The position numbers were made by a program, and so were the translations under genes. From a virus, in IMG/VR virus record IMGVR_UViG_3300013093_000132, positions 1 through 35,161 of that record: a stretch of DNA of 35,161 bases. One strand, written 5' to 3'. The notes below the pieces were generated by a model. The model searched no databases. It saw only the letters and a list, made by a program, of their open reading frames with translations, and was not told where the DNA came from. Positions 16,268-27,179 of this stretch are shown in pieces; position 1 is the first letter of the stretch, and each line of letters starts with the position of its first letter.

Positions 16268-16864
16268 ATGGCATCAGGTTTTAATATTAGTACCTTTAAG
16301 TCAAGAGGGCTAACATTTGGTGGAACTCGTCCAGCACTTTTCGAGGTATATCTTAATATTCCTGTCGGTGTCGGCGCAGATCAAACATCAGCTGACAAGT
16401 TTAGATTTACCTGCAGGGCAGCTCAGCTCCCTGCAGCAACCATCGGCAATGTAGAGATCCCTTACTTCGGACGTAGGGTCAAGGTTGCTGGTGATAGAAC
16501 ATTCGCAGACTGGACAGTCACGATCATGAACGACGAGGACTTCCTTGTTCGCTCGATGTTTGAAAAGTGGTCCAACTCGATGAATCGTCTTGAGTCAAAC
16601 GTTCGTGACGTATTATATTCTCTTAATGAGAATGCATATAAGACTGACTTAACTGTCATTCAATACGGCAAGGATGGATCTCAGATTCGTGCATACGACA
16701 TCATTGGCGCCTTCCCAACTAACGTTGACGCTATTGCTCTTGATTGGGATTCACAAAATCAGATCGAGACATTCACTACTACATTTACATATGATTATTG
16801 GCTACCTCGTGATGAGACCGTTAATCCTTATCTAGGACAGGCTATCTCTCCTATCTCTACGTAA
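16268..16864 (+). CDS. gp19: Tail tube protein gp19
   Basis: 198 residues. 'FKSRGLTFGGTRPALFEVYLN' early, 'CRAAQLPAATIGNVEIPYFGR' (about 49-69) and 'VKVAGDRTFADWTVTIMNDEDF' are classic gp19 features. It forms the inner tube that the gp18 sheath surrounds. A strong AGGAGA lies about 7 bases before the ATG. Codon use is relatively G+C-rich, as for gp23, fitting high expression. Confidence 0.95.
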   Translation: MASGFNISTFKSRGLTFGGTRPALFEVYLNIPVGVGADQTSADKFRFTCRAAQLPAATIGNVEIPYFGRRVKVAGDRTFADWTVTIMNDEDFLVRSMFEKWSNSMNRLESNVRDVLYSLNENAYKTDLTVIQYGKDGSQIRAYDIIGAFPTNVDAIALDWDSQNQIETFTTTFTYDYWLPRDETVNPYLGQAISPIST

Positions 16865-21884: not shown

Positions 21885-21892
21885 TATAAATA
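21885..21892 (+). promoter_or_regulatory. T4-type late promoter TATAAATA before gp23
   Basis: Exact consensus 32 bases before the gp23 ATG; AAAAGGAGA ribosome site follows. Best-supported late promoter here, since gp23 is the most abundant late product in T4-like phages. Confidence 0.8.
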
Positions 21893-21924: not shown

Positions 21925-23325
21925 ATGTATCTAGCTGAGGAAGTCCAAAAGAAGTGGCAGCCAATTCTGGAGCACGCGGATCTACCAAAGATCCAAGACC
22001 AGACCCGCCGCTCTGTAACTGCAGTAATGCTCGAGAACACCGAGCAAGCCGTTCGTGAAGCAAGTGCTCACGGTGGTTATTCAACTCTTAACGAAACTGT
22101 TTCGTCAACCCCTGTTAACTTCATGGGTACATCGAGCTCGGCGGCTGGCGCTGGTGGTATTGATACCTTCGACCCAGTATTGATCTCGCTCGTACGTCGT
22201 GCAATGCCTAACCTCATTGCTTATGACATCTGCGGCGTTCAGCCAATGACTGGTCCAACCGGCCTTATCTTCGCAATGCGCTCGCGCTATGCTAACCAGA
22301 CTGGTGCAAACGGCTATTCAAACGGTCAGATGCAGGATAACGAAACCTTCTATAACGAAGTTAATACAGCATTCGCTACCGGTACAAACGCTCTATCGGG
22401 TAACTCGACCTTCGGTCAGGGTGCATTCGGTACAATCCCAGGTCAGACAAACACCACCCCAATGGTGAACACTGCTACCTATAACACTGGTTCGGCTATC
22501 CCAACAGCTCTTGCTGAGTCGCTTGGTGTTGACTCTGGTAACAACTTCAACCAGATGGCATTCACAATTGAGAAGGTAACTGTCACTGCTAAGACACGTG
22601 CCCTTAAGGCTGAATACACAATGGAACTTGCACAGGACCTAAAGGCAATCCATGGTCTTGATGCTGAGACAGAACTAACCAACATCCTCTCGTCTGAAAT
22701 CCTTGCGGAAATCAATCGTGAAGTTGTTCGTACAATCAACATCACTGCTGTCTCTGGTGCTCAAGAAAACACAACAACTGCTGGCGTGTTCGATCTTGAT
22801 ACCGATTCTAACGGTCGTTGGTCAGTTGAAAAGTTCAAGGGTCTTATGTTCCAGCTCGAGCGCGAAGCTAACCAAATTGCCAAGCAGACACGTCGTGGTA
22901 AGGGTAACATTGTCATCTGCTCGTCGGACGTTGCTTCGGCTCTTCAGATGGCTGGTGTTCTTGACTACACACCTGCTCTTAACAGTAACAACCTACAAGT
23001 TGACGACACGGGCAACACCTTCGCAGGTGTTCTAAACGGTCGCCTACGTGTTTACATCGATCCATATGCAATCGGTGGCAACTATCTAACAGTTGGTTAT
23101 AAGGGTTCTTCGGCATTCGATGCCGGTCTGTTCTACTGCCCATACGTTCCTCTACAGATGGTACGTGCGGTTGATCAGTCAACCTTCCAGCCAAAGATTG
23201 GCTTCAAGACTCGTTACGGAATGGTTGCAAATCCATTCGCTGAGGGTCTTACCAAGGGTGCTGGCGAGCTTGCTTTCAATACTAACAAGTATTATCGTCG
23301 TATCATTGTTAACAATCTTATGTAA
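21925..23325 (+). CDS. gp23: Major capsid protein gp23
   Basis: 466 residues. 'SAAGAGGIDTFDPVLISLVRRA', 'PNLIAYDICGVQPMTGPTGLIFAMR' and the C-terminal 'RYGMVANPFAEG' are gp23 hallmarks. The N-terminal propeptide contains 'YSTLNE' at 52-57; cutting after Glu57 would satisfy the gp21 rule, comparable to Glu65 in T4. Codon use is clearly more G+C-rich than surrounding genes (about 50% in a sampled line, many TCG serines), as expected for a very highly expressed gene. No gp24 vertex gene follows, as in cyanophage-type T4-likes. Confidence 0.97.
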   Translation: MYLAEEVQKKWQPILEHADLPKIQDQTRRSVTAVMLENTEQAVREASAHGGYSTLNETVSSTPVNFMGTSSSAAGAGGIDTFDPVLISLVRRAMPNLIAYDICGVQPMTGPTGLIFAMRSRYANQTGANGYSNGQMQDNETFYNEVNTAFATGTNALSGNSTFGQGAFGTIPGQTNTTPMVNTATYNTGSAIPTALAESLGVDSGNNFNQMAFTIEKVTVTAKTRALKAEYTMELAQDLKAIHGLDAETELTNILSSEILAEINREVVRTINITAVSGAQENTTTAGVFDLDTDSNGRWSVEKFKGLMFQLEREANQIAKQTRRGKGNIVICSSDVASALQMAGVLDYTPALNSNNLQVDDTGNTFAGVLNGRLRVYIDPYAIGGNYLTVGYKGSSAFDAGLFYCPYVPLQMVRAVDQSTFQPKIGFKTRYGMVANPFAEGLTKGAGELAFNTNKYYRRIIVNNLM

Positions 23326-23362
23326 AATATATATTTTTAGTCAAGTTAATGACTATAAGAAG

Positions 23363-23370
23363 TATAAATA
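23363..23370 (+). promoter_or_regulatory. Late promoter TATAAATA inside the gp23-endonuclease hairpin
   Basis: Exact late consensus. Its last four bases form the start of the 5' arm of the hairpin at 23367-23396. Transcription starting 6-7 bases further on (about 23376-23377) would omit most of that arm, so the late RNA cannot form the hairpin. Confidence 0.7.
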
Positions 23371-23400
23371 CTCCCGAGGGCAACTTCGGGAGTATTCTTT
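23367..23400 (+). terminator. gp23 terminator hairpin that also covers the endonuclease ribosome site
   Basis: Perfect 11-base-pair stem: AATACTCCCGA (23367-23377) with TCGGGAGTATT (23386-23396), 8-base loop, then CTTTT. It can end gp23 transcripts. The 3' arm contains GGGAG (23388-23392), the only ribosome site before the ATG at 23402, so read-through RNA would have that site paired. Confidence 0.8.
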
Positions 23401-23401
23401 T

Positions 23402-24028
23402 ATGAAACAAGAAAAATATGGATTTGTATATATATGGTTAGACAAGAAACACAAGCGCTATTATATTGGATGCCATTGGGGGTCAATAGATGATGGTTAT
23501 ATTTGTTCATCTCCATGGATGATGCAAGCTTATAGAATAAGACCAAATGACTTTAAAAGAAGAATTATTAAAACAAATATATCTTCTAGAGTAGAATTAT
23601 ATGAAGAAGAACAAATTTGGCTTAATTATATAAAAGAAGATGAAATTAAACCTAAAAATTCAAAACCAAGATATTATAATCTACAAATCAAAAATAATAA
23701 TACTTGGCATAAATATGATGAACAATTAAAAAATGTAGGTCAAAAGATCTCAGCTTCTAAGACTGGGAAAAAGACAGGTCCAAGACCTGAAGTTGGTCCA
23801 GCTATCTCTGCTGCTAAGAAGGGTAAACCGCTTACTGAAGAACATAAAGCTGCATTGAGAGGTATCAAAAAGAAGTCTCATACAGACGAGTGGAAACAAC
23901 AGAATTCTAATAGATTTAAAGAACTGTGGGCTGATCCAGAATTTAGGGCTAATCAAACTGAGAAAAGAAAAGCCGCTTGGGTTAAAAGACGCCATGCAAT
24001 AAATAGTACACAAAAAGATCTGGGTTAA
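23402..24028 (+). CDS. GIY-YIG homing endonuclease (free-standing)
   Basis: 208 residues from ATG 23402. 'GFVYIW' at 7-12 and 'YYIGCHWG' at 20-27 form the GIY-YIG core of the nuclease fold. The C-terminal half carries NUMOD-like DNA-binding repeats ('KISASKTGKKTG', 'AISAAKKGKPLTEEHKAALRG') and a basic tail. Such enzymes cut homologous phage DNA lacking the insertion and spread themselves. It lies alone between gp23 and gp3 with its own promoter and terminators. One sampled line is about 23% G+C against about 50% in gp23, a sign of separate origin. The same frame stays open upstream through gp23, but that stretch is an out-of-frame reading of the capsid gene. Confidence 0.85.
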   Translation: MKQEKYGFVYIWLDKKHKRYYIGCHWGSIDDGYICSSPWMMQAYRIRPNDFKRRIIKTNISSRVELYEEEQIWLNYIKEDEIKPKNSKPRYYNLQIKNNNTWHKYDEQLKNVGQKISASKTGKKTGPRPEVGPAISAAKKGKPLTEEHKAALRGIKKKSHTDEWKQQNSNRFKELWADPEFRANQTEKRKAAWVKRRHAINSTQKDLG

Positions 24029-24041
24029 CCAGACACAAATT

Positions 24042-24067
24042 AGGCGGCCTTCGGGCCGCCTTTTTTT
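24042..24067 (+). terminator. Strong UUCG-loop terminator after the endonuclease
   Basis: Stem GGCGGCC (24043-24049), loop TTCG (24050-24053), GGCCGCC (24054-24060), then T7. The flanking A-T pair extends the stem. It is a textbook intrinsic terminator and isolates the endonuclease from gp3. Confidence 0.92.
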
Positions 24068-24068
24068 A

Positions 24069-24113: not shown

Positions 24114-24121
24114 GATAAATA
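24114..24121 (+). promoter_or_regulatory. Possible late promoter variant GATAAATA before gp3
   Basis: One base off the late consensus, 24 bases before the gp3 ATG. With the sigma70-like element upstream, gp3 may be read both early/middle and late. Confidence 0.45.
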
Positions 24122-24145: not shown

Positions 24146-24667
24146 ATGTCAGCACTTGACAATACCCCATTAAATAAGAACTTTTTAAGTCCACTTAACT
24201 TTGAGTTCTCATTGCAGAGGGCACCACACCTCAACTTCTTTATACAATCAATTAATCTGCCAGGGGTCTCATTTATGACCCCGATGCAGCCGACACCATT
24301 CTCAAACATTCCTCAGACGGGTGATAGACTATACTTTGACGACTTATCAGTCGTCTATAAGGTTGATGAAGACTTACAGAACTATCTCGAGATCTTTAAC
24401 TGGATAACCGAGTTAGGATTCCCTGCAGACTTTACACAATATCAGGCTATTGCAGCTAATCCAATAGCTTCAGGCGCAGGTATAAGATCTGACATAACTC
24501 TTTTGATACAAAATAGCTTGAAGGTCGCTAACTTCCAGGTTAACTTTAGAGAATGTATTCCTGTCGCAATAGGACCACTACAGTTTAGCTCTACAGATGA
24601 CACAGTTAACTTTATGACATGTAGTGTTACATTCAGGTATATGTTCTACGAGTTAAGTAAAATATAG
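24146..24667 (+). CDS. gp3: Tail completion protein gp3
   Basis: 173 residues (T4 gp3 is 176). 'NFEFSLQRAPHLNFFIQSINLPGVS' region at about 18-42, 'GDRLYFDDLSVVYKVDEDLQNYLEI' at 59-83 and 'MTCSVTFRYMFYEL' at the end resemble the tail-tube fold shared by tube-like proteins. Gp3 stabilises the head-proximal end of the tube and sheath. The order gp23-gp3-uvsY is that of cyanophage-type T4-likes. A tube-like structural paralogue of gp19 is the alternative. GGAGA precedes the ATG. Confidence 0.7.
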   Translation: MSALDNTPLNKNFLSPLNFEFSLQRAPHLNFFIQSINLPGVSFMTPMQPTPFSNIPQTGDRLYFDDLSVVYKVDEDLQNYLEIFNWITELGFPADFTQYQAIAANPIASGAGIRSDITLLIQNSLKVANFQVNFRECIPVAIGPLQFSSTDDTVNFMTCSVTFRYMFYELSKI

Positions 24668-26618: not shown

Positions 26619-27179
26619 ATGTCAGTTAAAGTAGCTAAACCGAGAAAACACTATGTCAATAACAAGACGATGTACGAGGAGATGGTTAAGTACAAAGAAG
26701 CTTGTAAGTTGGCAGAAGCAGAGGGTCGAAATAGACCACAGATTCCAAGATATATAGGTGAGTGTTTATTGCTCATATGTAAGAAGCTATCCACTAAGCC
26801 TAACTTCATGAACTACTCTTACAGAGATGACATGATATCAGATGGCATTGAGAACTGTGTTGCCTCGGTTAGTAACTTTGATCCAACAAGAACACAAAAC
26901 CCATTTGCTTACTTTACTCAGATTGCTTGGAATGCTTTCATTCGTAGGATCACAATGGAGAAGAAGCAATCTTATATCAAGCATAAGAATTATCAGAATA
27001 CATTCCTCATGGAAGATCATATGGATGGTGCAGTAATGAATACAAACGAGCACACTGATAATGTGATTAGAGCTTTTGAAGATAAGATTGCAGCAGCTAA
27101 ACTTGAGAAGAAAAAGAAGTTGGAGATGGTTAATGAAGGTAGCACTGATAACGGACACACATTGGGGGATTCGCAATGA
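26619..27179 (+). CDS. gp55: Late-transcription sigma factor gp55
   Basis: 186 residues (T4: 185). 'PRYIGECLLLICKKLSTKPNF' (43-63), 'MISDGIENCVASVSNFDP' and 'NPFAYFTQIAWNAFIRRI' form the sigma region-2-like core; the C-terminal part is basic then acidic. Gp55 directs host RNA polymerase to TATAAATA together with gp33 and the gp45 clamp. At least five such promoters lie in this window. Its 3' end overlaps gp47 by 47 bases. Confidence 0.92.
   Translation: MSVKVAKPRKHYVNNKTMYEEMVKYKEACKLAEAEGRNRPQIPRYIGECLLLICKKLSTKPNFMNYSYRDDMISDGIENCVASVSNFDPTRTQNPFAYFTQIAWNAFIRRITMEKKQSYIKHKNYQNTFLMEDHMDGAVMNTNEHTDNVIRAFEDKIAAAKLEKKKKLEMVNEGSTDNGHTLGDSQ

Follow-up and report, generated by a model that had tools for sequence, protein, structure and literature searches.

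In the current study, comparative analysis of a 35,161 nucleotide stretch of viral DNA (IMG/VR record IMGVR_UViG_3300013093_000132, hereafter the window) suggests that a mobile endonuclease cassette has inserted immediately downstream of the major capsid protein gene gp23 and that positions 23363–23404 represent its control region. A single hairpin carries the late promoter box on its 5′ arm and the Shine-Dalgarno (SD) sequence in its 3′ arm, with a T tract located immediately thereafter, and the comparison of related leaders shows that such a predicted hairpin-locked late promoter is conserved, and mobile, within a large family of endonucleases. The mechanism is already known from T4 I-TevI, segB and gene e and from Aeh1 mobE, and the window belongs to the same kind; its variant features are the T tract, the site behind a strongly expressed late gene and the family-wide conservation, and comparative genetics thus extends the hairpin-locked late promoter from a few T4 genes to this family. 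The promoter boxes, hairpin elements, terminator and genes assigned below all lie on the plus strand.

The original prediction placed the late promoter box TATAAATA (23363–23370) across the 5′ arm of a perfect 11 bp hairpin, with GGGAG in the 3′ arm nine nucleotides before the endonuclease ATG (23402–23404), and direct reading of the sequence bears out each of these elements, the box sharing its last four bases with a stem of 11 Watson-Crick pairs (23367–23377/23386–23396). Two further pairs (G23378-U23385 and G23379-C23384) extend the stem to 13 pairs, with a 5′ arm at 23367–23379, a GCAA loop (23380–23383) and a 3′ arm at 23384–23396. The pentamer CTCCC (23371–23375) acts both as the promoter spacer and as an anti-SD to GGGAG (23388–23392), the only SD of the leader, while the GC-rich part of the stem is followed by TTCTTTT (23395–23401), such that the hairpin has the GC stem and U tract of an intrinsic terminator, albeit with a slightly interrupted tract. 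This is the strongest perfect hairpin of the window and the sole stem with at least 11 Watson-Crick pairs (loop of 3–8) in 35 kb, and no such stem arose in 12 whole-window shuffles. Read-through RNA (23340–23430) is predicted to fold with −25.1 kcal/mol as compared to −12.9 ± 2.9 kcal/mol for shuffled sequences (z = −4.2; 0 of 200 shuffles as low). The proposal that the SD is hidden in such RNA is supported by its folding-derived unpaired probability, which is 0.00 in read-through RNA and 0.55–0.75 in RNA starting at 23376–23378; the latter could retain just a 4 bp stem with a GNRA loop (23376–23387). Between the gp23 stop codon and the promoter hairpin, a small A/T-rich stem-loop (TAGTCA-agttaa-TGACTA, 23338–23355) was noted by eye; stem-loops of similar form and differing sequence precede the promoter hairpin in many relatives, as does a recurring (A)TATACTTT motif in most gp23-site loci.

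The assignment of the box as a promoter was based on strand and position. The bare count of TATAAATA was rejected as promoter evidence, as it is not significantly enriched in the window (six copies versus 3.7 expected from shuffles). The core ATAAATA occurs 13 times on the plus strand and is absent from the minus strand of the window, and seven copies lie in intergenic DNA, which makes up 6.7% of the window, and each of these seven ends 22–32 nucleotides upstream of a start codon; because of this strand bias and positioning, rather than its count, the box is a credible late promoter. TATAAATA is also found as the late promoter of gp23 (21885–21892), gp22 is likewise preceded by a late box, and GATAAATA (24114–24121) is assigned as the promoter box of the next, tail-tube-like gene. 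The window also carries, at 26619–27179, the gene for a gp55-type late sigma factor (PHROG family phrog_234, E = 6e-55), the expected reader of these boxes, and CTAAATA, which is the late box of phage Aeh1 (PMC1524935), matches the boxes of many relatives. Applying the geometry of T4, in which late boxes occupy positions −13 to −6 (PMC1524935), the transcription start (+1) is predicted at 23376, directly after the anti-SD CTCCC.

Scans of viral contigs yielded 89 endonuclease hits, some of them overlapping, to which a few more from gp23 loci and from named Rhizobium and Sinorhizobium phages were added, giving approximately 64 distinct related leaders. In the class resembling the window, the five bases between the box and the predicted start are an anti-SD that covaries with the SD, the spacer/SD combinations being CTCCC/GGGAG, CTCCT/AGGAG, CCTCC/GGAGG, CCCTC/GAGGG, CCTCG/CGAGG and CTCTC/GAGAG. 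Across 26 distinct leaders, 97.4% of the helix cells pair, compared to 91.4% upon shuffling and 47–62% when partners are slid by 1–3 columns, and 17 cells carry double changes versus 4.0 ± 1.6 in shuffles (0 of 500 reach 17), although these shuffle figures are not strict probabilities owing to the shared ancestry of the leaders. Among leaders with the same box, the SD-burying feature was observed for 25 of 43 endonuclease genes as opposed to four of 360 other genes, one of these four (L150) being in fact a frameshifted endonuclease. As judged from these comparisons, the promoter-in-hairpin anatomy is real and selected.

The gene controlled by this region (23402–24028) encodes a free-standing GIY-YIG homing endonuclease of 208 aa, its identity as a homing endonuclease having been proposed at the outset and being corroborated here by its PHROG family (phrog_314, E = 2e-16), the Pfam domains of its relatives and its predicted fold. 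The best PDB match of this fold in Foldseek is the catalytic domain of I-TevI, with a probability of 0.99 but an E value of 0.03, and 44 relatives show no variation at Y10, Y21, G23, E70 and N93, residues characteristic of the catalytic domain. Pfam GIY-YIG was matched by five of 13 relatives, and NUMOD3 was also matched among relatives; the window protein itself gave no match in Pfam or NCBIfam, and a profile search against PDB sequences returned nothing relevant.

The upstream gp23 gene (21925–23325; Pfam PF07068, E = 1.5e-149) is one intact frame and the endonuclease gene lies outside any intron. Relatives with an empty site have, in order after gp23, a small hairpin, a terminator, TAAATA and the tail-tube gene, whereas in the window and many relatives the terminator and TAAATA block is positioned 3′ of the endonuclease gene; therefore, insertion seems to have taken place immediately after the stop codon of gp23, the cassette having, as far as the sequences indicate, brought its own hairpin. 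The GC-rich terminator at 24042–24068 is accordingly probably the displaced original gp23 terminator, and the tail-tube-like gene (24146–24667; phrog_45, E = 1e-32) is the one found directly after gp23 in endonuclease-free relatives. The small hairpin is situated directly after the gp23 stop codon and before the terminator in L002–L041 (e.g. AAGACGGtttcaagCCGCAAACT), and it is displaced 3′ of the endonuclease gene in L096 and L100–L113. In the broken gp23-site endonuclease gene of L150 (2633–3001), the full window-type hairpin is retained. A different gene of the window (16268–16864) also matches the tail-tube family phrog_45.

Three leader types were distinguished among the relatives. In type I, represented by the window, the SD is located inside the 3′ arm of the hairpin. 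In type II (L007, L028, L100–L105, L108, L109, L111, L113, L131, L147 and L152–L157, L154 also being listed as type III), the box overlaps a terminator hairpin and a separate SD is exposed downstream, representing a promoter-in-terminator without a ribosome lock, while in type III (L082, L106, L110, L141, L142 and L154) a longer structured leader lies downstream of a terminator hairpin. Types II and III, with a promoter in or next to the terminator hairpin and a separate, exposed SD, make up about half of the gp23-site relatives. The SD-buried class requires at least six changes on the endonuclease tree that are forced by well-supported branches, and the sisters L083 and L106 possess differing leaders; control regions therefore seem to have been exchanged between cassettes.

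Conservation of the SD-burying hairpin extends to other insertion sites, as it is kept at a neck gene (L090, L170, L174 and also L089), at the tail tube gene in Rhizobium phage RHph_I1_18 and at further sites in Sinorhizobium phages phiM12, phiN3 and phiM19. The buried SD of the neck-gene sites and of phiM19 comes with hardly any T tract or with none. A run of at least four T residues accompanies 21 of 22 type I leaders at gp23 sites versus four of ten elsewhere (Fisher p = 0.0014, kinship ignored, with one gp23-site row, L154, being really type III and one row from elsewhere, L150, really a gp23 site). The suggestion that the hairpin doubles as a terminator thus finds support at gp23 sites, where the T tract is nearly universal, and lacks it at most other sites. 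Where gp23 requires a terminator, one is retained in types I and II, and in the window terminator and lock coincide. In the neck-gene-site relatives L168, L169, L151 and L160, other leader folds were observed (e.g. CTATAGGA..TTCTATGGAG).

Based on these findings, we consider it probable that the hairpin combines promoter, terminator and ribosome lock in a manner that insulates the nuclease from capsid transcription. RNA running in from gp23 would carry both arms, so that the hairpin would terminate part of this RNA and mask the ribosome site on whatever leaks past the terminator, while the gp55-type polymerase would start RNA at about 23376; because the latter RNA lacks CTCCC, it would form neither terminator nor lock and would be translated. 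We infer from this scheme that the nuclease would be made late, at the level of its own promoter and insulated from the very strong transcription of the capsid gene. A strict timing switch of the I-TevI type, in which early or middle RNA is silenced by the hairpin and late RNA alone is translated, has the same anatomy in T4 I-TevI, segB and gene e in its favour (PMC2988022, PMC3014915). The early-silencing logic of the original prediction is, however, not supported in the window: gp23, directly upstream, has its own late box at 21885, gp22 has one too, and no early transcription unit or early promoter is evident upstream. As gp23 is preceded by TATAAATA, read-through RNA into the endonuclease gene would itself be late, and the hairpin is therefore likely to uncouple the dosage of the nuclease from capsid transcription, rather than to set apart early and late expression, which makes the timing switch an unlikely alternative.

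Slightly less likely again is that the hairpin merely constitutes the gp23 terminator, overlapping promoter and SD through compactness and exerting no translational regulation. Nearly all endonuclease-free relatives possess a terminator after gp23, and type II relatives display precisely this overlap of promoter and terminator hairpin while leaving the SD exposed; the exposed SD of types II and III also implies that the ribosome lock is dispensable at the gp23 site, which counts against the insulation account, as does the interruption of the window's T tract, and if the terminator is efficient it would leave the lock little to add. Against a terminator-only function, the anti-SD spacer covaries with the SD, an SD-burying hairpin is almost never encountered at ordinary late genes, and this hairpin persists at non-gp23 sites, where the T tract is usually lost; the lock is thus more than a side effect of termination. 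A chance overlap of an A/T-rich promoter-like word with a hairpin would be in keeping with the lack of enrichment of TATAAATA in the window, yet it is refuted by dozens of relatives in which the arrangement recurs and covaries at several sites, by the uniqueness of the stem in the window and by the endonuclease specificity, and its probability is negligible. The insulation of nuclease dosage from capsid transcription remains our preferred reading. It offers a possible explanation of how a selfish gene avoids overexpression in spite of a position downstream of the most strongly expressed phage gene, and of how the capsid gene keeps a terminator despite the insertion. It also provides a base-by-base prediction of the changes that should unlock the endonuclease gene.

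The promoter-in-hairpin arrangement has been described for I-TevI, I-TevII, I-TevIII, the free-standing segB and Aeh1 mobE (PMC2988022, Edgell et al. 2010), and for T4 e, soc and 49 (PMC3014915). The proposed likeness to T4 I-TevI holds with respect to anatomy, since both genes encode GIY-YIG nucleases and have their late promoter embedded in a hairpin by which the SD of read-through RNA is masked, the late I-TevI RNA being devoid of the 5′ arm (PMC2988022). In contrast to the window gene, which is free-standing behind a late gene, I-TevI is encoded in the td intron within early/middle transcription, and its hairpin lacks the T tract. The free-standing setting is not new ground, as segB and mobE, both free-standing endonuclease genes with the same hairpin logic, precede it (PMC2988022), repression having been demonstrated for mobE (according to PMC3014915); unlike the window gene, these two are not located beside gp23, and segB is without a terminator-like tail. 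Direct reading of the T4 segB leader (CATAAATA-CTCTT-agaaat-AGGAG) and of the gene e leader (TATAAATA followed by CCTTC, able to pair with the GGAGG of GGAGG-TATT-ATG) revealed a TAAATA box just before SD-complementary bases in both. The longer RNA of gene e is repressed about 100-fold (PMC3014915); this lysozyme gene differs from the window gene in not encoding an endonuclease, in its two tandem late promoters and in the absence of a T tract. T4 segD is also a GIY-YIG endonuclease gene between gp23 and the next gene, although it is oppositely oriented and no promoter of its own has been found (PMC2988022). In seg43 of Aeromonas phage 25, a stable hairpin just precedes an exposed RBS (PMC2988022), resembling type II relatives and differing from the buried SD of the window.

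With evenly balanced confidence, we propose that the control regions of endonuclease cassettes in aquatic T4-like phages are portable, that they unite late promoter, capsid-gene terminator and ribosome lock in one short sequence and that they are swapped between cassettes, one alternative being an undescribed structured leader RNA near the late +1 that is common to unrelated GIY-YIG and HNH endonucleases. This type III leader RNA, which may represent the newer, side finding of this work, follows the motif GUC-N-GU-CGCGG...CCC-AC-N-GAC-UCUA, then the SD and CAGC-ATG, and a pattern scan located it mostly in the stretch from a TAAATA late box to the start codon of GIY-YIG, HNH or NUMOD endonuclease genes. 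Examples include L082 (5941–6003), L106 (2935–3003), L180 (2185–2248, minus strand), L183 (691–756), L209 (2113–2177) and L223–L242, among others. Among 25 sequences, 96.8% of cells pair and 33 cells carry double changes versus 9.2 ± 2.3 in shuffles, while slid controls pair at 30–44%. A covariance model matched 13 of 15 IMG/VR contigs, the majority of them already known carriers, with 36 matches in total and up to seven per contig, and gave no match in the window, T4, phiM12, phiN3, phiM19 or RHph_I1_18. Twenty of these matches that were outside the training alignment all adjoin TAAATA, and 19 are then followed by an open frame, mostly for endonucleases of GIY-YIG, HNH or NUMOD type as recognised by eye. 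A search of the window and the type III loci against Rfam yielded no family matching these elements, and the work has thus led to a candidate RNA family absent from that database. In L192, L197, L202, L205, L211 and L212, the first codons CUAUUUAU form the complement of the promoter box AUAAAUAG; an outer stem between CUAUUUAU and the box, closing only in read-through RNA, could be another form of the same switch.
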